NCBI GenBank assembly: GCA_016187395.1
Contig: JACPJV010000006.1
Span: forward strand, 1-62,344
Length of the DNA: 62,344 nucleotides
Reading direction: 5' to 3'
From: Candidatus Aenigmatarchaeota archaeon
GTDB lineage: Archaea; Aenigmatarchaeota; Aenigmatarchaeia; GW2011-AR5; JACRAC01
The translations under genes and the position numbers were made by a program. Under the pieces are notes generated by a model. The model was not told where the DNA came from and made no database searches. It was given only the letters and a program-made list of their open reading frames with translations. This document shows positions 14,761 through 60,833 of the stretch, one piece after another. How positions within the stretch are numbered: the stretch's first letter is position 1; every line of letters starts with the position of its first letter.

Positions 14761-15588
14761 CTACTTCACAGGCTTTGCCTGCTTCCATACCATGTCGTAA
14801 ACTGGCTCCAGGAATCTGGAAGAGGCGTGAGAGCTTTGCGTCCAAAAAGCAATGTCCTGCGTAGGATGAGTCTTCGCATCATCTGTAAGGCCCATCAGGA
14901 ACTCATTCCCGTCAACTATTACGCAATGTCCGAGTATTTTATCAACGTTCTCAATACTCGATACGTCTCTGACATCTGCATACTTGGCAAGCAGTTTTGC
15001 CTGCTCGCCGGTATTTTTCTCGATAGGGGCAAGAATTTTGATCTTCACCCCATTTTCAGAAAGTCTTTTGAACAGAAGCATCTTATTCTCGGCAGTTTCA
15101 TTCAACATGTTTGGAGTTAGAAGCATCTTTACGTGCTTCTTCGATCTTTTCATCATGCTTTCCAGATGCTGGTGCAGCGCATATCTGCCTTTAATGGAGC
15201 CTGATAATTCTTCCGGCTGCACAACCTTCATGCTGCCTTTATGCAGCTTCTGCAACTCCCTGATAATATCCGAATTTTTCATCCTGTCTATCTTGTGCAC
15301 CCGCTCTTCAGTCATTTCCCTTATGCGCTTTTTAGCCCTGTCGAATGCCTCATGCGGAGCCACAGCAACATAGCGCATAGGTTTTCCAGGCTGGACTATG
15401 ACAAAGCCCAGATCTGCAAGTGATTGCAGAACATCATAGCATCTTGATCTGGGAACATTAGAAATATCTGACAACTCTCCGGCCGTGGATGCGCCGCGAG
15501 AAAGCAGCGCTGCCCAGAGGTTTCTCTGATACTTATTAAGGCCTATAGCCCTCAACGCATCCATAGTTTTCGACGAAGCAAGTACCAT
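14761..15588 (-). CDS. TrmB-family transcriptional regulator
   Basis: IGLNKYQRNLWAALLSRGASTAGELSDISNVPRSRCYDVLQSLADLGFV wHTH plus sugar-binding-like C-terminus; start trimmed to MVLASSKTM. Confidence 0.85.
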   Translation of the reverse strand: MVLASSKTMDALRAIGLNKYQRNLWAALLSRGASTAGELSDISNVPRSRCYDVLQSLADLGFVIVQPGKPMRYVAVAPHEAFDRAKKRIREMTEERVHKIDRMKNSDIIRELQKLHKGSMKVVQPEELSGSIKGRYALHQHLESMMKRSKKHVKMLLTPNMLNETAENKMLLFKRLSENGVKIKILAPIEKNTGEQAKLLAKYADVRDVSSIENVDKILGHCVIVDGNEFLMGLTDDAKTHPTQDIAFWTQSSHASSRFLEPVYDMVWKQAKPVK

Positions 15589-15600
15589 CGTACCACACCC

Positions 15601-15624
15601 CACGGTGCGTTGCAACGCACCGTG
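15601..15624. promoter_or_regulatory. Perfect 24-bp palindrome, putative operator upstream of the TrmB-like gene
   Basis: cacggtgcgttg|caacgcaccgtg, 12 nt upstream of the chosen start codon. Confidence 0.6.
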
Positions 15625-15883
15625 CATTCGTTAGCACAACTCACACTACTATTTAGTGGATTCTGATTTTTAAGCTTTAAATCCCTTTTGCACCCAGCTT
15701 AATTATTATAAAGTGGCTAATATCAGCCCTTTTCATAACCTATAGGCGAGAACTATTAAAAGGTTTTTTGCGTGCATTGAAAACGTATGCTTAAAAACAT
15801 TTGCTATCGATATGCGTATATACGGTCATACGAAAGGCTTAAATAATTTACTTTATAGTAATGACTTTCGATAGGTGAAAAAA

Positions 15884-16624
15884 ATGAGTGGTGAAGACGT
15901 GGATAAAACTTTCATGACCAGGGAAGATTTGAGAAAACCAGGAGAAGAGAAACGCCGAAAAGTCATTGTACACAGGGTTACATTCCAGAGACCCGAAGAG
16001 GCCCTGGTGAGCCATACTATCAAGGAAGGAGACATGGCAACAAAAGTGGTGAGAAAAATATATGATTATACCCTTCAAAGAATGGCAGAGGGGGAAAGAC
16101 CGGATTATGTAGCTGACATGAAAGAAGATGAAGAGGTTGTCAAGAGAATTCTGCTTAAGAGATTCGATGCAAATGACAGCGATGATATCGAAACAATCCG
16201 CTGGCTTCATAAAACAAGAGAGGGCTTGGTGTATTCTGCAGCAAGGCTTTTTGTCAGTCCAGAATGCAGGCAGGTTTCCAGGACCCACGCAAATATTGTT
16301 CTTAAGGCAAGATTAGCAGAAGGAAGCGGTGGAGTAGTGGAAGAATACTTTGAGTTGCACGATTTGCCTCCGTACAGGGGTGTGCCAAAAACCCGCGTTT
16401 ACAGGGACCATCTTTTCGGAGAATTTTCAACTGAACAGCGCGAGAGATTAATAGCGGCAGGAATCGTAAGGCACGGAACTCAGGATAGTGATTTGGTTAG
16501 AGTCCCGTACAAAGTAGTCCCAGGAAAGCCCTGGAAGCTTCGGGATCAGGACGTAGTAGGTCTTGGTGGGGAGATAGGACAGGACGTCAAACTCACTTAT
16601 TCTGTAACCGCAGAATATGAATAA
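15884..16624 (+). CDS. Hypothetical protein
   Basis: ~246-aa ORF beginning MSGEDVDKTFMTREDLRK; GGTG-type ribosome-binding sequence upstream; family not recognised. Confidence 0.6.
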   Translation: MSGEDVDKTFMTREDLRKPGEEKRRKVIVHRVTFQRPEEALVSHTIKEGDMATKVVRKIYDYTLQRMAEGERPDYVADMKEDEEVVKRILLKRFDANDSDDIETIRWLHKTREGLVYSAARLFVSPECRQVSRTHANIVLKARLAEGSGGVVEEYFELHDLPPYRGVPKTRVYRDHLFGEFSTEQRERLIAAGIVRHGTQDSDLVRVPYKVVPGKPWKLRDQDVVGLGGEIGQDVKLTYSVTAEYE

Positions 16625-16626
16625 AT

Positions 16627-16695
16627 AGCTTTGTAGAAATTCTTAGATTTCGAGAGCGGCTTCCTAATGATTTCGGCAAGGATTTCTACAGAGCT
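16627..16695 (+). other. Long-stem hairpin immediately after the 15884-16624 stop codon (terminator or small RNA?)
   Basis: agctttgtagaaat (16627-16640) pairs with atttctacagagct (16682-16695), 14 bp with one G-U. Confidence 0.4.
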
Positions 16696-16834
16696 GTTAT
16701 TTTTAATGTGAAACAAGGATCCCATGCGAATCGAAGATTCGCATGTACAGGTGAACCAAAGGTTCACCTTGTAAAGCTGCAGGTTTTGCGAGGAGGCTTC
16801 CGCAGATAAAAGATGACCAACTCAATGAATTTAA

Positions 16835-16927
16835 TGTGAAACAAGGAAATAATACCGGCATATCCTTGTTTCACAGTATAGTGCACAAGGAATTACCATA
16901 TCCCAACTTATTCCTTGTAGCACTATA
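16835..16927 (+). repeat. Double-hairpin repeat element, copy 1
   Basis: tgtgaaacaagga-(aataataccggcata)-tccttgtttcaca, then tatagtgc acaaggaat ... attccttgt a gcactata with one bulged A. Confidence 0.85.
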
Positions 16928-16952
16928 TAAGCTTCTTCTAGCGTCTATTTTT

Positions 16953-17828
16953 ATGCCGAGGAGGAAAGAAAGAAACAGGAAGAAGAAGGGAAGGATGAAT
17001 ATTCTTCTGGTTGCAAAACAGAACCCCACCGGAATAAAGGCTGCGAAGGCTGTTTACAAAAGGCTTCATGAATTCGCAGACGTGCACCTTGACCTTACAA
17101 CCTCGCTGAGGCTGCGAAGGCCGAGGGGAACAGCGCTAAAGAAATTCAACGGAGATGTGATAATCACGCTTGGCGGTGACGGGACATTCCTATGGGCAGC
17201 CTACCAGGCCAAAGTTCCAATACTGCCTGTACGGATAGAGGGGCACGGCTTTCTCTGCACGATAGACTATAAGGATTTTTTGAAAGAAATGGAAAAGATA
17301 CGGCGAAGGGATTATTTCATCGAGAAAAGAATGCGACTGAAATGCACGGCTGTAAGGGAAAAACTTTTGCGGAAGATATTCGGAAAGCCTTATCCGCTTT
17401 CGCTGAATGAGATAGCGTTTGCGAGAAAAAGGCCTTCAAAAGTCCTAAATCTAAGCTTCAAAATAGACGACACTGTTTTTGACCTTACAGGCGACGGTGC
17501 TGTATTCTCAACGCCTTCCGGCTCCTCGGCATATGCTGCATCAGCAGGAGGCCCTATAATTGATCCTTCGCTGGAAGCGATAACTGTCGTACCCCTGTAT
17601 CCGTTTCATTCCCACATAAAGCCGATAATAATGCCTGCCGACAAGAAAATAGAGGTGGAGATCGTAGGAGGCGACTGCGCGCTGATAATAGACGGCCACG
17701 GAGGGGAGTACGTAAAACGAGGGGCAAAATTCTTCGTGGAGCGCGGTGATTCTGTCAAGATTGTGCACCTGAAGGAGCACAGATTCTACCACAAGTACAA
17801 GTCCTCTTTCCTGGAGCGAAAGGTTTAA
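16953..17828 (+). CDS. nadK: NAD kinase (ATP-NAD/AcoX family)
   Basis: ITLGGDGTFLWA; FSTPSGSSAYAASAGGPI; ORF start trimmed because the upstream part overlaps the repeat element. Confidence 0.92.
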   Translation: MPRRKERNRKKKGRMNILLVAKQNPTGIKAAKAVYKRLHEFADVHLDLTTSLRLRRPRGTALKKFNGDVIITLGGDGTFLWAAYQAKVPILPVRIEGHGFLCTIDYKDFLKEMEKIRRRDYFIEKRMRLKCTAVREKLLRKIFGKPYPLSLNEIAFARKRPSKVLNLSFKIDDTVFDLTGDGAVFSTPSGSSAYAASAGGPIIDPSLEAITVVPLYPFHSHIKPIIMPADKKIEVEIVGGDCALIIDGHGGEYVKRGAKFFVERGDSVKIVHLKEHRFYHKYKSSFLERKV

Positions 17829-18526
17829 AGTTCTCTCAACATTCTCATAAGCTCCTCGAAGTCTAAGTTTCTACCCAGAATCAATTCCCATGCTTCTGCG
17901 TGCACCCTATCAGTTTCCATGTCTTTTCTTGAACTTACCCATCGCCTTGCATCTTCCGGATACCTTTCCAGCATGTAAGAAAGTTCTACAAAAGAGGCAA
18001 GCGATTCCTCCACGATATATCTACGTTCATCCAATTTCTGGCCTAACTTGTAAGGAAATTTTATGGCTACAACTCCATGCGTACATTCGTGAACCAAAGT
18101 CGAATCCTCAGGAAAGTCTGCTGCTGGTATGTAACCTCCCAAAGAAAAGCAGAATTTTCTGCTCGGAACCTTTGCATAACCAGGTTCTACTCCTTTCAGT
18201 TCTATAAGAGACGTTGCAATATCTTCCTCGCGGTTCAAATCACGGAGTTCCACCAGATCTCCGTTTCTCCAAGTAGTCCCGAAAAATGGCATAAACCTGG
18301 CGTCAGTTCCGAGACTTCTTACATTCAATTCTCCAAGTTTTTCAGCATCAACCTCCCTCACATAAATGCCGTTGTGCTCTCTGTATCCGCCGAGGGACCT
18401 GTTCACATAAAGAACGACAGTTCCGTCATCTTCCCTGTCCGTAAGAACAGCTGCGCAGTCCCTGCCGAAACGGCTTCTTACGTATTCCGTGCTATCTTTA
18501 AGATGCCGCACCGAAAGCTCGTTCAT
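17825..18526 (-). CDS. Hypothetical HExxH (zincin-like) protein
   Basis: STLVHECTHGVVAIKF followed by VEESLASFVEL. Confidence 0.6.
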   Translation of the reverse strand: MNELSVRHLKDSTEYVRSRFGRDCAAVLTDREDDGTVVLYVNRSLGGYREHNGIYVREVDAEKLGELNVRSLGTDARFMPFFGTTWRNGDLVELRDLNREEDIATSLIELKGVEPGYAKVPSRKFCFSLGGYIPAADFPEDSTLVHECTHGVVAIKFPYKLGQKLDERRYIVEESLASFVELSYMLERYPEDARRWVSSRKDMETDRVHAEAWELILGRNLDFEELMRMLREL

Positions 18527-32409: not shown

Positions 32410-33540
32410 ATGTCCACAACCACGCGGGAAGAAAGAATTGCCAGGGTGAAGAGCCTGATTGAGAGAGGGATGAATGCAGAAGAAATGCATGCACAAACCG
32501 GTATCCCTATAAAGACGCTGTATCGATTTAGAATAGACGGCGCACCTCTGCCCAGGAAACGTCATTTCAGGGCGAAAAGAAAGCCAGGGATAGATATTTT
32601 ATTGGATCATTGGGAAGAGCTTCGTCCAGAAGATCTTTCGCTGCACTCGCTTGCCGAGGCAGGAGGATACCAGACTCCGCAAGGTGCCTGGGATTATCTT
32701 TCGAGAACAGTCCGGCTTGGTTTATGGAATGACAGAAAAGAGCGCCTGGAAGCAGCACGGAAAGAGGCAAGGCTGAAGCTTCTGCGGGTGCTTACGAACC
32801 CTGGAGAAAAAATTGCAGCCTTGCTTACAGGGAAAGTCTTAAGAGACGCTGAAGGACAAGGGGCGCTGCATAGAAAGGCCATAGAATATCTTATGAACAG
32901 AAAAAGAATCTCCAGAAACGTCCCTCCGGAAAACGTGCTTAGATTCGTGGAGGCTTACGAGGAGGCGGAAAGAAACGGGGAAAAACCAGGCATTCAGCCG
33001 CTTGCTGAAAGAAGCGGGATCCGTTCTTATGGAACAGGGCGGTTCATTTTAAGAAGGATTGGCAGAGAGCCTTTGAACGGATATGGCATTCCAGGAGAAA
33101 AAGCACAGGCGCTTGAAAGGGCATATGATCTTCTTGATTTTAGCTCGCAGGATTTAGAATACTATACTGGAATTTCAAGGAATTCTATTCTGTATTTCTT
33201 CAGAAAGATCAGAGAAAAGACTGGCAAAAGAAGGAAATCAAGAAAATCTATAACACAGTTCGTCGGGGTTTCTGGAAATACCCTTTGTTACAGGCATGCG
33301 AGCGAAATATACAGGGCATGGGACGCAGGGTTCAGAAGATATGACGAGATATCAGAGCTTGCTGGAAGGGACGTGAGGGTTGTCAGGTTTGCCGTAGAAA
33401 ACAGAAGAAAGGGATTGGACATAGAAAGCCTGATCGTAAATGCCCTCGGTGTGCTTTATCCTGGCCGAGGCACAGACAAACCATACCCAGGAAGCTGGCT
33501 GTCTCAAACAGGCCTGCAGAAACCCATCTCTTCCAGATAA
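32410..33540 (+). CDS. Multi-HTH putative DNA-binding protein
   Basis: Repeated HTH-like segments: GMNAEEMHAQTGIPIKTLYRFR; DLEYYTGISRNSILYFFRKIREKTGKRRK; RYDEISELAGRDVRVVRFAVENRRKG. Confidence 0.6.
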   Translation: MSTTTREERIARVKSLIERGMNAEEMHAQTGIPIKTLYRFRIDGAPLPRKRHFRAKRKPGIDILLDHWEELRPEDLSLHSLAEAGGYQTPQGAWDYLSRTVRLGLWNDRKERLEAARKEARLKLLRVLTNPGEKIAALLTGKVLRDAEGQGALHRKAIEYLMNRKRISRNVPPENVLRFVEAYEEAERNGEKPGIQPLAERSGIRSYGTGRFILRRIGREPLNGYGIPGEKAQALERAYDLLDFSSQDLEYYTGISRNSILYFFRKIREKTGKRRKSRKSITQFVGVSGNTLCYRHASEIYRAWDAGFRRYDEISELAGRDVRVVRFAVENRRKGLDIESLIVNALGVLYPGRGTDKPYPGSWLSQTGLQKPISSR

Positions 33541-33818
33541 GAGAGAACAGACCTGTAGGAATGCATGACTGTTGAATGGTCCCTCAAAAGCATGCGTCCT
33601 ATATTAGGATAGGACACTTCAAATCTTTCTCTCAATACATAAATTGCAACAGCTCTGGCTACTACGTGTCCGCTTCTTTGCGCTCTGCCTCTGAGGTCTG
33701 GTACAGCTATGCCTGTCCTGCGGCTTACAGCCGGAAGGACGCCTTCCAGAGTCATCCCGGCAGTTCCCATCAATTCAGCGATCATCCTTTCTGATCCGGC
33801 CCACTTATCACTGTTCAT
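33504..33818 (-). CDS. DnaA C-terminal (domain IV)-like DNA-binding protein
   Basis: VSRRTGIAVPDLRGRAQRSGHVVARAVAIYVLRERFEVSYPNIGRMLLRDHSTVMHSYRSVLSYL, matching the DnaA signature RDHTTVxHAxRxI. Confidence 0.75.
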   Translation of the reverse strand: MNSDKWAGSERMIAELMGTAGMTLEGVLPAVSRRTGIAVPDLRGRAQRSGHVVARAVAIYVLRERFEVSYPNIGRMLLRDHSTVMHSYRSVLSYLEEMGFCRPV

Positions 33819-33991
33819 TCTTTCACCTTCTTTTTCATTCTGCGTTTCGCTTTTCTTTTCGCATCTTCTTCCATAATAACAGGCCCGCGATAGCCGCAGT
33901 TGTTGCATAGGTAGAATATTCCTAAGACACCTCCCATCCATATGCCTATAGGGCCTTTCCTGCATTTTGGGCAGATTTTGTCGGCAGGCAT
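33815..33991 (-). CDS. Small zinc-ribbon protein (58 aa, not in ORF track)
   Basis: MPADKICPKCRKGPIGIWMGGVLGIFYLCNNCGYRGPVIMEEDAKRKAKRRMKKKVKE; ATGA overlap with 33818 start. Confidence 0.75.
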   Translation of the reverse strand: MPADKICPKCRKGPIGIWMGGVLGIFYLCNNCGYRGPVIMEEDAKRKAKRRMKKKVKE

Positions 33992-42643: not shown

Positions 42644-42664
42644 AATACATGTATGACATGTATT
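42644..42664. promoter_or_regulatory. Perfect inverted repeat operator upstream of second TA pair
   Basis: aatacatgt-atg-acatgtatt directly before the 42670 start. Confidence 0.65.
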
Positions 42665-42669
42665 ACATT

Positions 42670-42894
42670 ATGCAATTAAGCGTCAGGAATGTTGCCAAAA
42701 AAACCTTCAAGGAGTTTAAGGCCAGAACCGTTGAGGAGGGCGTCCCTGTTGGGACGGCTCTGACTCTTGCCATGGAGGAGTGGCTTGAAAGGAGGAATAC
42801 TAAGAGGAAAAAATACCTCGAACTAAAGCCTTGGGACTGGGGAACAGGCACGGAAAGAACGAGCAAGGATATTGACAAAATAGTCTACGGGTGA
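42670..42894 (+). CDS. VapB-like antitoxin
   Basis: MQLSVRNVAKKTFKEFKARTVEEGVPVGTALTLAMEEWLERRN. Confidence 0.65.
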   Translation: MQLSVRNVAKKTFKEFKARTVEEGVPVGTALTLAMEEWLERRNTKRKKYLELKPWDWGTGTERTSKDIDKIVYG

Positions 42895-43307
42895 TTATAA
42901 TCTCCGTTCTTATTGATACCAATATTTTCGTATCCTACTACAATAAAAGAGATGTGGAGCACGAAAGAGCTTCAAAAATAATGCCTGAAATATTTGACGG
43001 GAGGTTCGGTAAACCTATAGTCTCTGATTATATTTTCGATGAGATAATCACTGTCTGCCTTGCACGGCTCAAAGACAAAGAGCATGTTAAGAAAATAGGA
43101 TCTGATATGCTTTCTACGGACATCATCTTCGTCAAGGTCAGTGAAAATGTTTTTTCGGAAGCATGGAAATTCTTCCTTTCGACAGATAAAACTTTCAGCT
43201 TCACTGACTGCACAAATATTGCGCTGCTGAAAATCTATAACATAGATTCCATAGCGACGTTTGATAGTGAATTCAAAAAGGTGAAAGATGTAAAGGTTGT
43301 GCCGTAA
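42891..43307 (+). CDS. VapC-like PIN-domain toxin
   Basis: VLIDTNIFVSYYNKRDVEHERASKIM; SDYIFDEIITV; SFTDCTNIALLKIYNIDSIATFDSEF. Confidence 0.82.
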   Translation: MIIISVLIDTNIFVSYYNKRDVEHERASKIMPEIFDGRFGKPIVSDYIFDEIITVCLARLKDKEHVKKIGSDMLSTDIIFVKVSENVFSEAWKFFLSTDKTFSFTDCTNIALLKIYNIDSIATFDSEFKKVKDVKVVP

Positions 43308-47970: not shown

Positions 47971-48246
47971 CTATTTCCATAATCTTCTGTTTTCAGAGTA
48001 GTCTGCGATGACTCCGATCAAAACTACCAGAATCAGCGAGATTATGATATAGGTAGGAATCTCTACAGACGGTGCAGCTGTTGGTGAAACCAGAGGCGGT
48101 GACGGTATGGGCGGCGGAGAAGGCAGCCCTGCTTCTAGTTCCAAAGGAGGCGACGGGAGATCCGGGGGTGGTGGTGGGAGCTCCTGCGCATAAACTGCTG
48201 CTGCAAGAACCAGGACTATCACTAATAGCGGCAGGGTCTTGTTCAT
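47971..48246 (-). CDS. Small exported Pro-rich protein with C-terminal TM helix
   Basis: Signal peptide ending AVYAQ; ELPPPPPDLPSPPLELEAGLPSPPPIPSPP; IIISLILVVLIGVIADY. Confidence 0.65.
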   Translation of the reverse strand: MNKTLPLLVIVLVLAAAVYAQELPPPPPDLPSPPLELEAGLPSPPPIPSPPLVSPTAAPSVEIPTYIIISLILVVLIGVIADYSENRRLWK

Positions 48247-48338: not shown

Positions 48339-49169
48339 ATGCGCGGGACTTTTTTAGGGACACTTCTGACGATTCTTTTCTTCATAATCATCATAGGGGC
48401 ATCTTTGTTCGCGATGATATTCTTCTCTTTCTCTTCTGGCGCGCAGGACAACGCTTTATTCCAGCTATTTACCTCGATAAAAGGAACGAGCCTTGGAGGA
48501 GGCCTGTTGCAGTATAGAATCGCAGGCGATCCGGTTACAGACATATCTATACGAACCCTCGCAAGGGGTACTTTGCAAAGTGCAGACGCGAAATCCTTAT
48601 CACTGTACATAGCAAGACTCAGAACAATTTTCAATGATAATCTGAAAGTAAAAATGGATAATTCATTATACGCAACGGGATTTGCCCCTGTATTCTGCGG
48701 AAGTGGCAATTTGATTGCCTACTGCGAGAATGCGGAGAGCGGGTGCTCTTCAGGGAGAATAGGATGCATTGGAAGCGAATGCAACAGCAACGTATGCGGA
48801 GAAGGAAGCGTGTGCTGCAAAGAATTATTCAATGTCCAGACACAAACGTATCAGGAAGAGCCTGAACTGCAGTTGTGCCAGAACAGGAAAGGCATATGTG
48901 AAATAATCGAATGCGCGCCTGGAAGGGGACTGCTGCAAAAGGACGACTCTTGTGCGGTTGCATTATCAAGAGAAAAATCCATGCAGCCTGTGCCGCTGTT
49001 CGGGTTGGAACAGCCGTTTTTGTGCTGCATTCCTTTAGGAAGGGATGAACTTAGAAGAACAGTTGAGAGAAGGGACGAGCCTGTTCTTGAGGTGCCTCTC
49101 TTATCATCGGGCGACCAGCAAAGACCTAGTGGTTACGTAGGGAAAATAGAGATTGTATCAGGTGGGTGA
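48339..49169 (+). CDS. Pilin-like/secreted Cys-rich protein
   Basis: N-terminal hydrophobic helix GTFLGTLLTILFFIIIIGASLFAMIFF; many Cys (CENAESGCSSGRIGCIGSECNSNVCGEGSVCC). Confidence 0.65.
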   Translation: MRGTFLGTLLTILFFIIIIGASLFAMIFFSFSSGAQDNALFQLFTSIKGTSLGGGLLQYRIAGDPVTDISIRTLARGTLQSADAKSLSLYIARLRTIFNDNLKVKMDNSLYATGFAPVFCGSGNLIAYCENAESGCSSGRIGCIGSECNSNVCGEGSVCCKELFNVQTQTYQEEPELQLCQNRKGICEIIECAPGRGLLQKDDSCAVALSREKSMQPVPLFGLEQPFLCCIPLGRDELRRTVERRDEPVLEVPLLSSGDQQRPSGYVGKIEIVSGG

Positions 49170-49174
49170 TCAAA

Positions 49175-52006
49175 ATGAAAGGTGTGGGTATCGATTTCAT
49201 ACTAGGAACACTCATAGCAATAGCCATGCTTGGATTATTTTACAACCTTGTGACAACCTCTGTAATTGCAAACAACAGAATAACATCAAAAATCGGCGAT
49301 ATATCTTCTGCCTACGCGGCTATAGATGCATTTCGAATATCTTACGACGGAACGCTTGAAAGGTTAGCCAAAGATTCCGCCTCATTTGCCTTGCAAAAAA
49401 GATTTGGAATGCCTTTTTCTGCAGATTTCACCGATGCAGATATGAACAATGCGTTGGCAAGCGCTTTGGCCACACCTGCCTCTGTTTCTGAATACCTGGA
49501 ATCTGATCTTTCTTCAGCCACAGTTCCGGCTCAGGCAAAACTCGCCTACAACAACAGGCCTTTTGACGTGGTTGTTGACTTTATGCTTAAAACAATATCA
49601 CTGCCTTACGAAGAAGAAGCAAGGTTTCTTTCAGAGGTCAGCCTTCTTGTTGACGGTGTTCAGATAGATACAGATACAAGATATGAGAACGAGGCAACAA
49701 GCGGGAAAAGGATACGGAATACAATATTAAATTCATGGAGCATTGCATCGTTTATAACAAGGACTCATCATCAGCTGCTGGAACCATTACAATATATTGA
49801 AGACACTCCGAGATCAAGAAGGGCAGAATTGTTTGGTATTGTAAGTTCTAATTCTGTTTTTCTTCCGTCCGACTCTGCATCTTATTTCGTTAATGCTAAA
49901 TCAGAAGGCAGTGGAATTTCTTATTCTATATCGTCTGAGATAGGGGAAACCAGAAAAATGTTTGTTACAGGGCTTTCCCCGCCGGAGTGCGGAATAAAAA
50001 AGCAGGAATATGACAGGTATGCAGGTGCTATAGAGAAAGCGCTGCCTGACAGGCTTCTTCCTTACGTAGATAATCCCAGATCTCTTATAGCTGCGGTAAT
50101 AGAAGTGCAATCTTCATGGACTCCGATACGATCAGGACTTACAGGAATGACTGCTTCAAAAACGCCTGGCGAGGAGATTCTCCTGCTTGTTAACGTGCTG
50201 GAGGATAAGGCAGATGAACTGAAGATGGACAAATTTTATGCAGACAGTGGCATGGAGGTTGTAGAAGAGCTGTTAGGCAGGATAGGATTGTCGCCTGATG
50301 AAATTAACAACATTTTAAGTCTTTATAGCAGCTGGGAAAAATGCCCGTTCAATAACCCGTTTCCTGAAGGGAGTTTTTCAAAACCGCTTGAAGGGCCCGT
50401 TATAAAATGCTACGGAGACCCTGCATGTTCAGGAACTGCTCCGTCAGAGGAATTCTATCCAGGCATAGACATATTTGGAAAGCCGGGATCTGATGTATCT
50501 GCAATACACGAAGGTCGCCTGATAAAAGTGACGATAAGGGTTGGCAGCCAGATTTACCAGGATTCTTTCTCTCTGATTTACCAGGATCCGGAGACAAGGC
50601 GCAACTTCATAACTATATACAACAACGTGGAGCCTGTGCCTGACACTTCGCAGAACTACTTCAAGGCAGGAGACAAAATAGGAACTGTTAAGGATATCGG
50701 GAATCTTTCTTACGTGACCATCATAATTGCATTTTTGCCGTTATCAGATCCTTTCCTGCACATAGAAGACTATACGATAAATCCCTGCCTTCTTATAGGA
50801 TGCATCCCGCAAACACCCGGCTTGGGCGAATTCCCTTACGTCTTCAGGGCGCTTGCAAATCCCGAAGATTATGCGGCGTTCCTCTCAGGAAAAAACGAGA
50901 AAAATATATTTCTTGGCGAGAGATTCTGCACAGAAACAAATATCAAGGAACGCGGTTTCCGGAATCTGGGATACAGCTTCTATTCAGCGGATGAAAATCT
51001 GTTTGAGGTCTACCCTGCCTTTCCCGGGAAGGTTGTGAAGGTTATGAGAGGTGACTTCTCAGGATCGGGATCGTGGTACGGATGCGGCGGAGCTGTTTTT
51101 GTAGAGACAGAGACCCCTTCGGGATCTTTCATAACAGCCTACGGTGGCACTACTCCTTTTGTTTCTGAAGGAGATTTTGCAAGCAGGAACCCCTTTCTTG
51201 GAAAGTCAATCATAGGGGGTGTTTCAAATTTTCACGGCCTCTGCCCTGAACCGCATCTGGATGTCCGGATATTCGAGAAGAGCTACATTCCTGAAGAAAG
51301 CATAACAAACGCCTGCGGAACAGCGGTCAGCGAATGCACGGTTGCGCCGCCTGCGCCTGATGAAATAAGCACAACCGTATACGCATTCAAAAACCACTGC
51401 GCAGCGCTTGAATGGGAAGCTGTCTCGCGTGCGTCATTCTCGCCTACATTGGCCAAAAAACAGCTCGCGCTGAATTATGAGAAAATTCCAGAGGCCCTTA
51501 GAACAAGAATGGAAGTCACGTCGCCTGCATCCTGCGAGGGCGACGGGAGATTCAAGTGGCAGGATACAGAAGATGCGTTGTGCATGGATGGACAAATTCA
51601 CATCTGCACGACAACTGAACAGGCTTCCGGGGAGAATATTCTTTATGAAGACATGACGGTTGGAAGTTACACCTGCAGGATATTCGAAGAAGGGCTTCGC
51701 GACAGATGCGTAGAACATTCCGGAAACATCCTGCTTGAGCAGAAATGCGGGCAGAAGATACAGAATCCGGACTTTGAAAAATATGCAAACTGGGTTTCCC
51801 AAAAGCTCGCAGGACCTCCAAGCCAGCCTGAGTCCGGGACGCTGTTCACCAGGGTGATATCAAAGCTGTGCAGTTCAGAGGAGGATCAGAAGGATTACAC
51901 GTGCTGCGTTGCAAGCGGCAAAACCTACAGATGCACAGGAAGCGTGGCCCTGGACCCGACAAGCTTTGAACTAACATGCAACGGAGAGGCTGCGTGCACT
52001 AGCTAG
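49175..52006 (+). CDS. Large exported protein with two degenerate M23 (LytM)-like segments
   Basis: MKGVGIDFILGTLIAIAMLGLFYNLV; YPGIDIFGKPGSDVSAIHEGRLIKV...GDKIGTVKDIG; VYPAFPGKVVKVMRG...PEPHLDVRIFEKS. Confidence 0.7.
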   Translation: MKGVGIDFILGTLIAIAMLGLFYNLVTTSVIANNRITSKIGDISSAYAAIDAFRISYDGTLERLAKDSASFALQKRFGMPFSADFTDADMNNALASALATPASVSEYLESDLSSATVPAQAKLAYNNRPFDVVVDFMLKTISLPYEEEARFLSEVSLLVDGVQIDTDTRYENEATSGKRIRNTILNSWSIASFITRTHHQLLEPLQYIEDTPRSRRAELFGIVSSNSVFLPSDSASYFVNAKSEGSGISYSISSEIGETRKMFVTGLSPPECGIKKQEYDRYAGAIEKALPDRLLPYVDNPRSLIAAVIEVQSSWTPIRSGLTGMTASKTPGEEILLLVNVLEDKADELKMDKFYADSGMEVVEELLGRIGLSPDEINNILSLYSSWEKCPFNNPFPEGSFSKPLEGPVIKCYGDPACSGTAPSEEFYPGIDIFGKPGSDVSAIHEGRLIKVTIRVGSQIYQDSFSLIYQDPETRRNFITIYNNVEPVPDTSQNYFKAGDKIGTVKDIGNLSYVTIIIAFLPLSDPFLHIEDYTINPCLLIGCIPQTPGLGEFPYVFRALANPEDYAAFLSGKNEKNIFLGERFCTETNIKERGFRNLGYSFYSADENLFEVYPAFPGKVVKVMRGDFSGSGSWYGCGGAVFVETETPSGSFITAYGGTTPFVSEGDFASRNPFLGKSIIGGVSNFHGLCPEPHLDVRIFEKSYIPEESITNACGTAVSECTVAPPAPDEISTTVYAFKNHCAALEWEAVSRASFSPTLAKKQLALNYEKIPEALRTRMEVTSPASCEGDGRFKWQDTEDALCMDGQIHICTTTEQASGENILYEDMTVGSYTCRIFEEGLRDRCVEHSGNILLEQKCGQKIQNPDFEKYANWVSQKLAGPPSQPESGTLFTRVISKLCSSEEDQKDYTCCVASGKTYRCTGSVALDPTSFELTCNGEAACTS

Positions 52007-52814
52007 GCCTGTTTTTTATTATCTCCACTTTTTTATCCGCAACGTCCTGTGAATTCACTTTTCTCACTGTTTCTGTCGCATCCCCTGCTACGTATTCAAC
52101 TCTTTCTCCGAACTTGAAAGGATTCTCCCTGCTATAAACAAGCTCTGCCTCTGTTTTTCTGCATGAAGTGAAGAAATCTATGCTGCCTCTGGACGTTATT
52201 ATCATTGCACGCATGCATATCCTGCCGTCTTCGCCGTATAACTCGCATTCATTGCCTGCACGTGGCTCGCTCACACCGCTTATACCCCTCCCGACACCCT
52301 GGCACAATATCCTTGTGACAACTTCTTTGGCGATCAGTGCCTTCTCTGCGTCGCACGTGAATCTTGACAGCGCATAATCGAATATTACGACGCGCATCTC
52401 TGCAGGCAGAAGGGTTTCTCCGCTCTTTAGCCACACGCCGTATCTGCCGACAAACGTGCTTTCGGAATTCTCTATATTCTCAAAAGTTTTGTCGCTCAAA
52501 AACCCAAAGCTCCAGTTTTCCTCGTAACCGCTTTCATTCAAAAGATAAAACCCGTATCGTGCAGCCATGCTGCACGGTCTGACCAGCTCCTCGTCAGAGC
52601 CATCCATTTTTTTGATCAAATCCAGATCAAAAACCCCCCTGCTTGCCGTGAGGTTTGACTGTAGCATGAGATTTGCAGATTCTGCGGCCACTTTTTCCAT
52701 TGACTGCGTGTTGATCTCGGCGTAAAAGGCGTTGTTCAGGAGGATTGCCATAACAACGAATCCTATTAGCGCCACCATCCTGATCAAAAAATTTACCTGC
52801 TCCGCCATCGACAT
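51999..52814 (-). CDS. Pilin/TadE-like membrane-anchored exported protein
   Basis: QVNFLIRMVALIGFVVMAILLNNAFYAEINTQSMEKVAAESANLML. Confidence 0.6.
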   Translation of the reverse strand: MSMAEQVNFLIRMVALIGFVVMAILLNNAFYAEINTQSMEKVAAESANLMLQSNLTASRGVFDLDLIKKMDGSDEELVRPCSMAARYGFYLLNESGYEENWSFGFLSDKTFENIENSESTFVGRYGVWLKSGETLLPAEMRVVIFDYALSRFTCDAEKALIAKEVVTRILCQGVGRGISGVSEPRAGNECELYGEDGRICMRAMIITSRGSIDFFTSCRKTEAELVYSRENPFKFGERVEYVAGDATETVRKVNSQDVADKKVEIIKNRPS

Positions 52815-52827
52815 GCTATCGCCTCCA

Positions 52828-53250
52828 CTATGCGGGCTCTGTTGCCTCTACATTTACCTTGTCATCCTGCCTGCGGAAGACAAGCATCTGATTCCTGCTG
52901 CAGTCTTCACTTTTCTGCCAACTTTCAACCAGATACTTTCCATCAACGGATATGATGCTTGCTGCTGAAACTCTTTGCCCGGACTTCAAGTCAACAAAAT
53001 TTTCATGTATCCGGAGTTCGCAGCTGCTCAGCCTTGGCAGCAATAATTCGTACACAGAACCTTCAGGCGCTTCCTGCATTACGCCTGCTATTGACGCTAT
53101 TTCAGCGGTGGTTGCCGCCAAGCTGAATTTTACTGCGTTTTCGCCCATGCTGCTTATTGTTGTGAAAAAAACCACTACAAAAACTAGCATTATCAGGAGC
53201 ATTGCCCACGTCTCCAGCGGCTTGGTGAGTACGTATACCTGCTCTGCCAT
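52828..53250 (-). CDS. Small pilin/TadE-like membrane-anchored exported protein
   Basis: KPLETWAMLLIMLVFVVVFFTTISSMGENAVKFSLAATTAEIASIAGVM. Confidence 0.6.
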   Translation of the reverse strand: MAEQVYVLTKPLETWAMLLIMLVFVVVFFTTISSMGENAVKFSLAATTAEIASIAGVMQEAPEGSVYELLLPRLSSCELRIHENFVDLKSGQRVSAASIISVDGKYLVESWQKSEDCSRNQMLVFRRQDDKVNVEATEPA

Positions 53251-53276
53251 GGAAATAGTAGTTTGGTTCTTTGCTT

Positions 53277-53372
53277 AAAGCAAACCAACTTAATAAACGA
53301 CATACGAAAAGTTGGTTTGCTTTATGGGAAAGCACAAATAACATGTTCCGTTTCATTTGTGGTTTCACTATA
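53277..53372 (+). repeat. Double-hairpin repeat element in a divergent promoter region
   Basis: aagcaaaccaactt-(aataaacgacatacgaa)-aagttggtttgctt then tatgggaaagcacaaat...atttgtggtttcactata. Confidence 0.82.
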
Positions 53373-53436
53373 AAGATTGCAGAGCTTTTCCTCTGAATGA
53401 TTTCAAAGCTCATTCCTCCTTGCATTGCTTCCCGTG

Positions 53437-53481
53437 TAGTGAACCAACTTTCCAGCGGTATTTTTAAGTTGGTTCACTATA
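53437..53481 (-). repeat. Single-hairpin member of the repeat family
   Basis: tagtgaaccaactt-(tccagcggtattttt)-aagttggttcacta. Confidence 0.75.
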
Positions 53482-53491
53482 AATAGTGATC

Positions 53492-54919
53492 ATGGCGCGA
53501 GGCATAGGCTTACCTTTAGTTCTTTTGCTTGAGGTCATGGTTGCAATAATAGCCAGCGTAGTAATTGCGAACTTTCTGAACTCTGCGTGGAATCCGCACG
53601 AGCAAGCTGCGTTTGCGAGCGCGGAGGCGCTGGCGCTGACCATTGACGAGGTATGCGGAAGGCAGCTTGGCTTTTCAAAGGAACTTGACGTCAACGTGCC
53701 GCAGCCGACGCCGCCTGTGATCGGAGGGACTACACTGTTCCCTCAAATAGGAATGCGGATAAACGGCGATCCGCACTATCTTCTCTATTATGAGAATTTC
53801 CCTCCAGGCGAGGCAATATCCTGGGAGATCTACAACAATTTTCCGGAGCGTGCAGTTGTATTTGCCGACCCGGATGAGGGAGAGACGCTGGGAGAATACG
53901 TCGGAAGGTTCAGGCAAAACCTGCAAGCAGCAGGCTTTTCAACAGAGCTCAGCAGGTATGTCTTTGGAAATATAGTGCTGAATGACGTGCCGGAAAAAGG
54001 CGAAACGCGTCTTGCAGGCGACATAGGCCACTGGGAAGGGAATGTATACAAATTTGACAAGACTCCTGTGCTTGCAAAGGCAGACCAGTCGCTTGCCAAA
54101 TACCGCACCTGCAGTCCCTTTTCCCTGTGCTTCAAGACCCGCCAGGGAATTGTGCGGATACCGCTGCATAACTGCAGGCGTGCCAACGTGACGATAATGC
54201 AGGTGGAAAGAGAACCGCCGTCTCATCCAACTGGCGCTGTGGAGGATTACGGCAAGACTGCTCTCGGAGGCATTGCAATAGGCACAGCAACAGGAGCTAC
54301 GATAGGAGCGGTTGCAGGCATCTGGACAGGACCGGGTGTATTGGCAACCACGCTGACAGGTGCAAAGATAGGTGCGTGGGTTGGAGGCTCGCTTGGTGTG
54401 ATAGGCACGTCCTTCAAAAGAGTGAATACCGTTGGCGACGTCTCTGATTTCTACCTGGCCAGTCCGTGCAAGGCAAAGGCAGAGATTACAAAAACCACGT
54501 GCGAATGCAGGAGCAGCAAGTTGCCTGACGCTGTTCTGCCAGAAACATTTAAAAAAGAATATACAAGCGATGAGTTCGGAATATATGAAATATCCTCTGG
54601 AAACCTTGTATCGTCCAAGGAAAAGAGCGCCTGCATACACCAGTATTCAAGGGACGACAAGCTGGAGGAAAGAGAGCTGGAAAAGGAGTGCGTCAAGGTT
54701 CGGCTTGACGTCTCTGAAGGAAGCTTCTGCACAGGAGGGCAGAATGAGCTGGGCCAGGTCACGCTGAGCACTGTGTGGCATGACAGCATCGAGAAAGGCC
54801 TTGCCCAGATGTTTGACACCAAGGAATTGAGGAAGGAGGTGACTGTCGGCGAAAAATCAGGGTTCATCCAGAAGGCTTTTGGCGGTTTAAGGGTTCCGTT
54901 TGGATGGCCGGTTGGATGA
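53492..54919 (+). CDS. Pilin-like exported protein, paralog A
   Basis: GLPLVLLLEVMVAIIASVVIANFLNSAWN; HYLLYYENFPPGEAISWEIYNNFPERAVVFADPD shared with 55734-57248. Confidence 0.7.
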   Translation: MARGIGLPLVLLLEVMVAIIASVVIANFLNSAWNPHEQAAFASAEALALTIDEVCGRQLGFSKELDVNVPQPTPPVIGGTTLFPQIGMRINGDPHYLLYYENFPPGEAISWEIYNNFPERAVVFADPDEGETLGEYVGRFRQNLQAAGFSTELSRYVFGNIVLNDVPEKGETRLAGDIGHWEGNVYKFDKTPVLAKADQSLAKYRTCSPFSLCFKTRQGIVRIPLHNCRRANVTIMQVEREPPSHPTGAVEDYGKTALGGIAIGTATGATIGAVAGIWTGPGVLATTLTGAKIGAWVGGSLGVIGTSFKRVNTVGDVSDFYLASPCKAKAEITKTTCECRSSKLPDAVLPETFKKEYTSDEFGIYEISSGNLVSSKEKSACIHQYSRDDKLEERELEKECVKVRLDVSEGSFCTGGQNELGQVTLSTVWHDSIEKGLAQMFDTKELRKEVTVGEKSGFIQKAFGGLRVPFGWPVG

Positions 54920-55612
54920 TCACCTGCCTATATCTGTCGGCTCGCTTCTGCCGCTTATTCTTGTTGCCATCCACCTGTCGGTACCGTCTTTGTCTATGAG
55001 AAACGGCATGCTTATGAAATCCGAATCTGTAGAAAAGCAATATCTTACAGGCGTGGTGTCGCCCGGGATATCCGAAATTACTGCAATAACCTCGCATTCA
55101 TGCCCTGCTATTGTTCTGGTTCCTTCTGGCTTGGCAGATATCAACTTGCTTATTCTGTGGCGCGTTGTCATGGTATCTTCGGGACATCTAAATGGAATGG
55201 AGTACTCGCTTTGCTCAGACCATAAAAGATTTGAAGGCGTTGCAGGCGGAAGGTGATGTCGCATATAAATCTTGCCGCCAACAGAGGCGTACCTTTGGGG
55301 AAACCTGCTTAAAGGCCCTGACCTTGCTCCCTCTGGAAGCATGTCCTCTGGCAAAAAATCAAATCTCCAGTTATTTCCGTGCCTGCTTATATCCACTGTC
55401 CCTTTTTTTTCTCCTGTTTTCTCCCGGCTTAAGGAATAGGCAATGAAGTATTCTCCGCCGTTTTCGCAGTAGCTTTGCATTTTTTTGATCCTATCCTCAA
55501 ACCTTTCTCTTGCATTATTAAACGGATTGACCCTGTCAAGGATTCCTGTAGATGCTGCCCATATGCCTGCCCCTGCAATAAGCAATCCTGACGCAATATA
55601 TGCTAATTTCAT
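54920..55612 (-). CDS. Exported LolA-like protein
   Basis: N-terminal MKLAYIASGLLIAGAGIWAAS; IAGHECEVIAVISDIPGDTTPVRYCFSTDSDFISMPFLID. Confidence 0.6.
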   Translation of the reverse strand: MKLAYIASGLLIAGAGIWAASTGILDRVNPFNNARERFEDRIKKMQSYCENGGEYFIAYSLSREKTGEKKGTVDISRHGNNWRFDFLPEDMLPEGARSGPLSRFPQRYASVGGKIYMRHHLPPATPSNLLWSEQSEYSIPFRCPEDTMTTRHRISKLISAKPEGTRTIAGHECEVIAVISDIPGDTTPVRYCFSTDSDFISMPFLIDKDGTDRWMATRISGRSEPTDIGR

Positions 55613-55623
55613 GATGAACACCC

Positions 55624-55644
55624 AACACCAGTGCATCTGGTGTT
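55624..55644. promoter_or_regulatory. Inverted repeat just upstream of the 55612 start
   Basis: aacaccag-tgcat-ctggtgtt. Confidence 0.45.
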
Positions 55645-55733
55645 CAGCATCTCGAAATAACCCAGTATTTTTAATCGAAGTTCTTTCAGAGATAATCCAA
55701 TTGCAGGCCGAAAGCTATTAAAGCTATGAAGCG

Positions 55734-57248
55734 CTATGGCCACGAATACCCGGCAGCTCCCAGTTTGGTGCTGATGCCGGAAGGCCTTGCAAACTGGTCT
55801 GTGCTCTCCAGGGTAACTATGCCCTGGTAAAGTCCTCCGCCAAGAACAGATGCAGACTGGTAGAGAGGGAATTCACTGCTGCCTTCAACTCCTTTGAACT
55901 TGGAAAAGCAGAAGCCGATGTGATCTTCCACTGTAACGCGGATGCACGAGGGTATTACAGGCGTTTTCTGGTTTAGCTCTTCAAACTTGCTTTCGTCTGT
56001 TTCTTCAACATCGATCTTCTCGCTGTTTCTTATCATCCTCTGCCTGCACCGGAATCCGTCTTCTGCGCGGTTTGCCGTGTAATCATCGCCGCTCCCTTCG
56101 AGCTGCCATTTCTGTGTTTGGAATGCAGTTTTATCAACCGGAAGGAACCCGGGGAAATCAGGGAAATCATCCCAGCACGTGCATGATGTTTTTTCTATCT
56201 TCACGCTTGCCCTGCACGGGCTTGCAAGATAGAAGTCTGTGTTTGACTCGGCTGAAAATATGCTTGAAACATCGTCCGCCTTTCCGCCTACATATGCTGC
56301 TAAGGTTGTCTTCAGAGCTGCTCCTGCCGTGGTTTTTGACAAATCTATGCCCATGCTGAGGTAGCTTGCGGTCTTTTTTGATGAAAACAGGCGCACTATA
56401 GGTTTCCACGTGTGTGCTGTGGCTATCTTCAGAAACTTCCCCACAACCCTGGTCCAGCTAAAAAGCGATATGGTAATAGGAACTGCCTTGCCAATCACGG
56501 TTGTGGATCCCTTGAACATAGGCTGGTAGGTGGTCAGCTGCATGTAATTAATGCCTGCTTCCGCGCACTTGTCAAGGGGATAAACGATTATTTGTTTGGG
56601 TGTTTTGAGGCATAGCGCGTTCACGCCGCATAACCTGTATTTGACCGCTGTTTTGTTCAGAGGGCTTAGCGATTCATAATTGTCAAAGACATACCTGTTT
56701 CCTTCCTTGTTCCATTTTCCAAAGTCGCCGATAAGATTGAAGCCGCCTTTCTGCCTGTCCTTCAAAGGCACATTTGCAAAAACAGCGCTGGAATACTGCA
56801 GGCGCTCCAGCGCGTTTCTTTCCAGAACAGACAGTTGCTCGTCCCTCACAGAGTCTGCGTCAGGATTCTGGTAATATAATACTGCGCGCTTGCCGAAGTC
56901 ATGATATAATTCCCAGCTTATGGCTTCGCCTGGCGGAAACGACTCGTAGTATAAAAGTATATTCGGGTCTCCTCTGCTGGACAGAAGACCTCTTGGGATG
57001 ACGTTCTTTGCAATCACAACCCCGCCAAGATCCACGTCTGCAACAGACTGGGGAAGTGACACTTCTATGCTTTTGGCAGAGCCGCTCTGGCAGACCTCGT
57101 TGATTTCTTTGGCGAGGAGTGCGACAGATGTCTCTGCCTCTGCCTGGAAAGGCTGGAGACCTTCTTTTACAAATCCTCCCAGGACAAACAGCGACAGCAA
57201 AAGCCCCATTACCATGAATAGAAGTTCAAATTCTCCGTCCCCTTTCAT
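55734..57248 (-). CDS. Pilin-like exported protein, paralog B
   Basis: GEFELLFMVMGLLLSLFVLGGFVKEGLQPFQAEAETSVALLAKEINEVC; NILLYYESFPPGEAISWELYHDFGKRAVLYYQNPD. Confidence 0.7.
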   Translation of the reverse strand: MKGDGEFELLFMVMGLLLSLFVLGGFVKEGLQPFQAEAETSVALLAKEINEVCQSGSAKSIEVSLPQSVADVDLGGVVIAKNVIPRGLLSSRGDPNILLYYESFPPGEAISWELYHDFGKRAVLYYQNPDADSVRDEQLSVLERNALERLQYSSAVFANVPLKDRQKGGFNLIGDFGKWNKEGNRYVFDNYESLSPLNKTAVKYRLCGVNALCLKTPKQIIVYPLDKCAEAGINYMQLTTYQPMFKGSTTVIGKAVPITISLFSWTRVVGKFLKIATAHTWKPIVRLFSSKKTASYLSMGIDLSKTTAGAALKTTLAAYVGGKADDVSSIFSAESNTDFYLASPCRASVKIEKTSCTCWDDFPDFPGFLPVDKTAFQTQKWQLEGSGDDYTANRAEDGFRCRQRMIRNSEKIDVEETDESKFEELNQKTPVIPSCIRVTVEDHIGFCFSKFKGVEGSSEFPLYQSASVLGGGLYQGIVTLESTDQFARPSGISTKLGAAGYSWP

Positions 57249-60002: not shown

Positions 60003-60207
60003 TCTATCACCAGAACAATAGAGGCAAGGGATTTAAAGGTGATGCATGCCATCAGCGAATTATTCGGTATGCACATTTTCCCCGAATCTCGTCTTTTGCA
60101 GGCTCGAATGCCAGAACATCTCCGTCGTGAACGTTGAACTGTTCCACCTCTTGCCTGCGTCAAAACCCTTAAATACATGCGCATGCATATGTGCATGCAG
60201 TGATAAG

Positions 60208-60429
60208 ATGGTGAAAGTAATCTCTCTGTCAGAAGAGGCCTACGCAACGCTTAAGAGCCAGAAGGAGAAAAGCGATTCTTTCTCTGATGTCGTGCTCAGG
60301 CTCTCGAAAAGGGAAAGGAAAGACGATATAAGGGAAGTTTTCGGAGTCTGGAAAGGAGACAGGGAAATGGGGAAAATATTCAAGAATATTTTGAAAGAAA
60401 GGCGCGTATACAGGCCGATAAAGCTATGA
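60208..60429 (+). CDS. VapB-like antitoxin
   Basis: MVKVISLSEEAYATLKSQKEKSDSFSDVVLRLSKR; upstream gcatgc-atatgt-gcatgc repeat. Confidence 0.75.
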   Translation: MVKVISLSEEAYATLKSQKEKSDSFSDVVLRLSKRERKDDIREVFGVWKGDREMGKIFKNILKERRVYRPIKL

Positions 60430-60833
60430 CACGGGAGATGACTATGCCTGTTCTTGATACAGATATACTTGTCGGCGCCCTGAGAGGCGACATAGGAGCT
60501 GAACGCAGAATACTTGCGATCGGCGAAAATGCCCGTTTTACGACAACCATATCAGCAGTTGAGATATTCCAAGGCGCGTTTTTACACGCAAAGAAGGAAG
60601 AAAAGCTGGGGGATGCTTTCAGACTTTTCTCGCATCTGAACATATACGAATTTGACTATCCCGCTTCCCTCGTTGCGGCGGATATTTTTGCCAGAAACCG
60701 CCTTTCGGGGAATATTGTCGATGCCTTTGATGTCCTGATAGCTTCTGTCTGCCTTGCAAAAAACGAAACACTCATAACGCGGAATATTTCTGATTTCTCC
60801 AGAATCCCGCGGCTGAAAACCGAGAAATGGTGA
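60426..60833 (+). CDS. VapC PIN-domain toxin
   Basis: MPVLDTDILVGALRGD; TTISAVEIFQGAFLHAKK; NIVDAFDVLIASVCLAKNETLITRNISDFSRI. Confidence 0.9.
   Translation: MTREMTMPVLDTDILVGALRGDIGAERRILAIGENARFTTTISAVEIFQGAFLHAKKEEKLGDAFRLFSHLNIYEFDYPASLVAADIFARNRLSGNIVDAFDVLIASVCLAKNETLITRNISDFSRIPRLKTEKW

Follow-up and report, generated by a model that had tools for sequence, protein, structure and literature searches.

The window analysed here, a stretch of 62,344 nucleotides of contig C6 from a genome of Candidatus Aenigmatarchaeota, a DPANN lineage, raises the question of what surface apparatus is encoded by six neighboring genes at 48339-57248, and on what it acts. A preliminary description of this DNA had picked out six ORFs of one design. 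All six were found where it had placed them, and each product begins with a few polar residues and a single N-terminal hydrophobic helix, followed by an ectodomain. We assigned these single-pass proteins, whose ectodomains are mostly Cys-rich, to roles E, F, D, C, B, and B':

48339..49169, plus strand: role E, a pilin-like, Cys-rich protein of 276 aa with 14 Cys; class III-like start MRGTFLG, with [KR]G before the hydrophobic helix
49166..52006, plus strand: role F, a modular pilin-like protein of 946 aa with 24 Cys; class III-like start MKGVGIDF (Met at 49175)
51999..52814, minus strand: role D, 271 aa with 6 Cys; a 49-residue N-terminal helix and a beta head, without [KR]G; its family occurs in 22 loci
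52828..53250, minus strand: role C, a pilin-like protein of 140 aa with 2 Cys; an SLT domain is fused to its relatives in other families
53492..54919 (ORF 53486), plus strand: role B, the hallmark conserved component, with 10 Cys; its alignment has 18 invariant columns
55734..57248, minus strand: role B', a paralogue of B with 10 Cys; class III-like start MKGDGEFELL

The preferred start sites at 48339, 49175, 53492, and 57248 (minus strand) are those with Met immediately before the [KR]G motif. None of the six proteins matched a Pfam or NCBIfam family above cut-off; the searches returned sub-threshold noise and a weak M23 match in 49166. An Ivy lysozyme-inhibitor match of C (0.012) and a tail-spike Ig match of F (0.0013) were likewise below cut-off and were disregarded. 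Family HMMs built without the window's own copies recovered role E (48339, E=3e-19) and role F (49166, 1.8e-6). ORFs 53486 (B) and 55734 (B') are paralogues (BLAST E about 1e-39), and role B is marked by the conserved motifs YYExFPxGEAxxWE, KYxxCGxxSLCLKT, SDFYLASPC, and a terminal WxWP. The genes alternate strands and therefore do not form one operon. Two further proteins that had been counted with the cluster, a LolA-like one at 54920 and a Pro-rich one at 47971, are probably not part of the system, as neither is among the conserved operon families; the LolA-like ORF had no paralogue among the window and own-genome ORFs tested and was missing from sister operons.

The arrangement of these genes is clearer in related genomes. 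Up to 20 kb was fetched around each role B match, and all ORFs were clustered into families. A role B query matched 32 of 60 related genomes, including the window's own and most of those from the same order; the relatives with matches belong to Candidatus Aenigmatarchaeota, for example GW2011_AR5. In sister genomes the operon runs from an ATPase (F04, PF00437) and a TadC platform (F06, PF00482, 1.6e-6) through two anchored proteins (F05 and F11) to B, C, D, E, and F, and ends with one or two F01 pilins of ~110 aa with MKG-type starts. Of 22 loci, 14 have an uninterrupted B-C-D-E-F run, and 21 have B together with D. The ATPase lies on the same stretch as the B-F genes in 11 of the 22, several of the others being cut by contig ends or split. 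An ATPase from a sister genome scored far below the model cut-offs for the archaellum's FlaI (130.9 bits versus 550) and the Tad pilus's TadA (110.2 bits versus 373). All of these genomes are uncultured MAGs, whose sequences show which genes are present, their synteny and signals, and the identities and catalytic motifs of the domains.

Across the phylum, 81 of 159 genomes had a B-like match, full-length within the order and elsewhere mostly divergent or embedded in larger proteins. Outside the phylum, one Woesearchaeota and one Nanoarchaeota contig gave only weak B-like matches. At locus L071, several KG-type pilin-like genes sit beside the B-like match. Of 60 phylum members, nearly all have the pilus ATPase subfamily, and 54 of 60 genomes, the window's own included, have a prepilin peptidase; genomes G002 and G012 lacked both B and strong ATPase matches. 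We considered and rejected contamination or a viral origin, since in many independent MAGs F is flanked by pilin-like genes on one side and pilins on the other, with archaeal genes nearby that were recognized from their sequences as FEN1-like and Alba-like. Two other neighbors were observed: tandem ~160-aa multi-pass membrane proteins (F10) upstream of the pilus ATPase in L031, L042, L029, and L159, and, at the F11 position of L036 (12720-15521), a protein enlarged to 933 aa that has a carboxypeptidase-regulatory-like domain and weakly matches a reprolysin-like metalloprotease.

It had correctly been noted that the window itself contains no ATPase or prepilin peptidase. Both were found elsewhere in the genome, where the operon roles are split over 50 kb of contig C6 and the ATPase, platform, and pilin lie 18-41 kb downstream of the window cluster:

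C6:75533: F05-like gene (profile 5.5e-10)
C6:76505: second, weak F05-like gene (profile search)
C6:78022: pilin (profile 6.6e-8)
C6:91754-93772: TadC platform (family HMM 6.7e-218; Pfam only 0.003)
C6:93846-97985 (L179:15846-19985): pilus ATPase, PF00437 (family HMM E~0)
C25:32185-32496: class III prepilin peptidase, PF01478 (1.2e-7), which would cleave E, F, B, B', and the pilins

A further ATPase/TadC pair, belonging to another subfamily, also lies on contig C25. The pilus ATPase on C6 is interrupted by a LAGLIDADG intein, and long ORFs suggest similar insertions in other genomes of the phylum, namely G004, G019, G027, G048, G051, and G053.

We next consider whether the cluster proteins resemble pilins. 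A [KR]G motif preceded the first hydrophobic helix in 19/20 F, 20/24 E, 28/30 pilin, 21/35 B, and 13/22 C proteins, against a background of 31 of 138 other helix-bearing ORFs at the same loci; enrichment was absent for D (4/26), F05, and F11. Within the window, E, F, B, and B' carry the class III [KR]G signal, as do the pilins on the same contig, and C and D have no recognizable class III motif. Type IV pilins usually have helices of ~50 residues. AlphaFold predicted helices at 8-34 and 37-57 of B, followed by a mixed head with disordered loops (pLDDT 68), and a single helix at 3-51 of D followed by a beta head (pLDDT 78). The ~50-residue N-terminal helix predicted in B and D is compatible with the proposed resemblance to pilin or TadE-like proteins, but no TadE or pilin head was matched in the PDB: the heads of both models resembled no solved fold, and GFP-barrel hits for D (TM 0.11-0.14) were spurious. 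As for a pilus-like surface apparatus, synteny with the PF00437 ATPase, the PF00482 platform, and class III pilins, together with the [KR]G signals and the long N-terminal helix, all support that part of the preliminary description. The window cluster very probably belongs to a type IV pilus machine.

Such a machine has precedents in the archaeal type IV pili and archaellum surveyed by Makarova, Koonin and Albers in 2016 (PMC4858521), which share the secretion ATPase, TadC platform, class III pilins, PibD-type peptidase, and minor pilins encoded near the ATPase. Unlike those systems, the minor proteins of Aenigmatarchaeota match no Pfam or NCBIfam family above cut-off. The same survey could not identify cognate nanoarchaeal pilins for one ATPase clade, and the proteins described here are candidates for the cognate pilins of DPANN secretion ATPases, filling a gap that it names.

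What the apparatus might do is suggested by the domains that its proteins carry in relatives. Protein F, or C or E in some genomes, bears SLT, M23, Amidase_2, Amidase_3, or glucosaminidase domains, often several per protein. F combines Amidase_3 with M23 and a weak SLT in L027, Amidase_2 with SLT in L025 and L158, M23 with Amidase_3 and glucosaminidase in L035, and M23 with SLT in L033; M23 occurs alone in F of L041, L044, and L042, and of L051 from another family. The E protein of L025 carries SLT_2 (2.4e-8), the C protein of L035 carries SLT, and SLT matches in C range from 6e-6 to 1.6e-29. In L163, L164, and L168, from other families, SLT is fused to a C-like protein of ~300 aa beside further KG-type proteins. 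A 1,203-aa protein in the pilus operon of L159 (G057, 14891-18502) joins PKD repeats to a YkuD L,D-transpeptidase and Amidase_3. Scores among operon proteins reached 2.9e-33 and 7e-23 for Amidase_3, 1.8e-27 for Amidase_2, 8.5e-26 and 6e-25 for M23, and 3.6e-19 for SLT. Roughly half of the F proteins from the order match no hydrolase in Pfam. In the window's own genome (G000), small M23 proteins of 135-154 aa at C10:1470 and C12:3174 (L170 and L171), with similar ones in other genomes, seemingly form a family separate from F.

Most of these domains retain the residues needed for catalysis. Of 29 complete SLT domains, 28 retain the catalytic ES (one further domain is truncated), and nearly all have the GxMQ and YNxG motifs. 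By inspection against established family knowledge, both Amidase_3 domains keep H-E-H and the final E, and Amidase_2 has its H...H...D. The M23 motifs HxGxD, YxH, and HxH are complete in L041 and L044; in L033, L035, and L051 one HxH residue is altered, and several copies read HLD or NxH. Among 157 genomes, SLT was found in 44, M23 in 56, and Amidase_3 in 4, and none of the three in four archaeal control genomes. Hits no more than 15 kb away from an anchor, either B or the ATPase, numbered 10/46 for SLT (including the giant protein of the window's genome described below), 15/59 for M23, and 3/3 for Amidase_3, with ATPase anchors taken from 60 genomes only. These proportions exceed a generous upper-bound expectation of 7.5%, with P values of 2e-3, 2e-5, and 4e-4, respectively. 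The test is conservative because operons are split, and many SLT and M23 genes of the phylum sit away from recognized pilus anchors.

The natural substrate of the SLT, M23, and amidase families is the bacterial wall. A penicillin-binding transpeptidase was found in none of 60 genomes, and Mur-ligase gave at most one match, in 11 of the 60, so we do not expect peptidoglycan synthesis in these archaea. We therefore rejected their own peptidoglycan as the substrate, and the target is probably a foreign wall. The presence of wall-cutting enzymes on pilin-like proteins suggests a pilus used on bacteria, and we think it reasonably likely that in the sister systems the filament displays active peptidoglycan hydrolases for that use.

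The window's own F protein departs from this pattern. It aligns with sister F proteins across its C-terminal half (BLAST 8e-16 and 2e-12), the SLT active site aligning weakly, and its Pfam M23 match (5.2e-5) is below cut-off, with most metal ligands gone. The relevant features are:

50069..50140, plus strand: what remains in F of an SLT lytic transglycosylase active site; ITIESSWNP of a sister reads IEVQSSWTP here, the catalytic Glu replaced by Gln
50456..50704, plus strand: degenerate M23-like module 1 in F; Tyr stands in place of the first zinc-ligand His, and HxH is lost
50963..51295, plus strand: degenerate M23-like module 2 in F; HLD replaces HxH
C6:78465-89381 (L179:465-11381), outside the window: giant exported protein of 3,638 aa, between the pilin and TadC genes

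Because the SLT catalytic and M23 metal residues are lost, F in this genome is probably not an enzyme, and it may act as a wall-binding adhesin. Besides an SLT match (6e-12) that keeps the catalytic ES, the 3,638-aa protein shows NPCBM-associated and F5/8 type C matches, and its hydrophobic anchor is C-terminal. With its intact-looking SLT domain beside the pilus motor, it indicates that the pairing of motor and wall enzyme persists in this genome.

We therefore arrive at the reading, with a probability of roughly two in three, that the cluster encodes the minor-pilin complex of a type IV pilus found throughout Aenigmatarchaeota and that in relatives the hydrolase-bearing filament acts on bacterial walls. 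From the gene content we infer the assembly, tip position, bacterial target, and biological purpose as follows. The cluster proteins would form a minor-pilin complex, probably at the tip or for initiation. E, F, B, B', and the pilins would be inserted by Sec via their class III signals and then trimmed by the PibD-type peptidase, with C and D joining through their long N-terminal helices. The dedicated ATPase and TadC platform would polymerize pilins beneath a B-C-D-E-F cap. In many relatives F, and sometimes C or E, would be a modular pilin with several hydrolases making up its outer part: lytic transglycosylase and glucosaminidase against glycan strands, amidase against the stem-peptide attachment, and M23 against cross-links. 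Presented on bacterial walls by the filament, these could grip, thin, or open the wall, with attachment, feeding, DNA uptake, or attack as the possible purpose. In the window organism F has lost its catalytic residues, and the catalytic motif is kept by the anchored 3,638-aa SLT protein, whose gene neighbors those of the ATPase and platform. More speculatively, and as somewhat less likely than not, we suggest that the pilus tip is an interchangeable multi-enzyme peptidoglycan-cutting head with which an ultrasmall archaeon breaches the walls of bacterial partners or prey, its modules being swapped or lost as partners change, like phage tail-tip lysins.

Other explanations would account for part of these observations. 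If the six genes encoded unrelated single-pass surface proteins clustered by accident, the broken strand order in the window would be unsurprising, but synteny of these roles recurs at 22 loci in the order, half of which also include the ATPase and platform, and all operon roles share one contig in the window's genome. The paralogy of B and B' and the synteny of all six roles in sister genomes argue strongly against chance as the source of the clustering from which co-function had originally been proposed, and we regard this explanation as extremely improbable. A type II secretion-like pseudopilus could instead export hydrolases and release them into the medium with no display on a filament. 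An ATPase and platform are common to pili and pseudopili, and the same genomes encode giant exported SLT proteins. However, true pilin genes end the operon, archaea with one membrane need no such export route, and the hydrolase modules, being fused to class III pilin-like N-termini, belong in the filament or the membrane. Together these points make a pseudopilus improbable.

More serious is the proposal that the pilus is adhesive or serves DNA uptake, the hydrolase folds merely binding wall polymers or other glycans and catalysis being dispensable. The window's F, degenerate at all catalytic sites, fits this proposal, as do the M23 copies with HLD or NxH in place of HxH, and modular pilins of bacteria carry mostly binding modules (PMC8179133). 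Against it stand the near-universal retention of ES, GxMQ, and YNxG in SLT, that of the metal and catalytic residues in both Amidase_3 domains and Amidase_2, and the fully canonical M23 sites in L041 and L044. Three bond specificities in one protein are also poorly explained by binding alone, and we consider the proposal unlikely. We favor instead the minor-pilin complex whose hydrolases, in relatives, act on bacterial walls.

In Streptococcus sanguinis, PilB and PilC likewise place a functional module, thought to be at the tip, on a small class III pilin module (available excerpts of PMC8179133 and PMC9934059). Those modular pilins differ in being bacterial and in having been found via an N-terminal motif for bacterial pilins; in the same excerpts the known modules are vWA, lectins, and S74/M26 peptidases, and peptidoglycan-hydrolase modules go unmentioned. 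Castelle 2021 (PMC8204110) described murein-like lytic transglycosylase (SLT) proteins of up to 3,000 aa in Pacearchaeota and Woesearchaeota and proposed that they act on bacterial walls. They resemble the 3,638-aa protein encoded next to the pilus motor, but that study mentions neither pili nor type IV and makes no pilus link, whereas the Aenigmatarchaeota domains are fused to pilin-like proteins in a pilus operon and add further bond specificities. Secreted archaeal peptidoglycan hydrolases, of M23 type and others as in the present case, kill bacteria (PLoS Biol 2025, PMC12352652); only proteins with a known wall-binding domain qualified for that survey, and the delivery routes it took into account were Sec/Tat export and contractile injection, with no mention of presentation on a pilus. 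The 2016 archaeal pilus survey does not mention hydrolase, transglycosylase, or murein (PMC4858521), and a search of the openly licensed literature found no paper combining archaeal pili with peptidoglycan hydrolases. If correct, ours would be, to our knowledge, the first described pilus with wall-cutting pilin modules used across a domain boundary. It would connect the puzzling peptidoglycan hydrolases found in wall-less DPANN archaea with a surface machine and turn DPANN life on bacteria into a testable question.

Elsewhere in the window, two observations were made by eye. The C-terminus of an ORF at 33504-33965 resembles a bacterial DnaA DNA-binding domain (SYPNIGRMLLRDHSTVMHSYRSVL), which is odd for an archaeon. 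At 42649-43307 and 60046-60833, a small ORF followed by a PIN-like ORF marks two likely VapBC-type toxin-antitoxin pairs.
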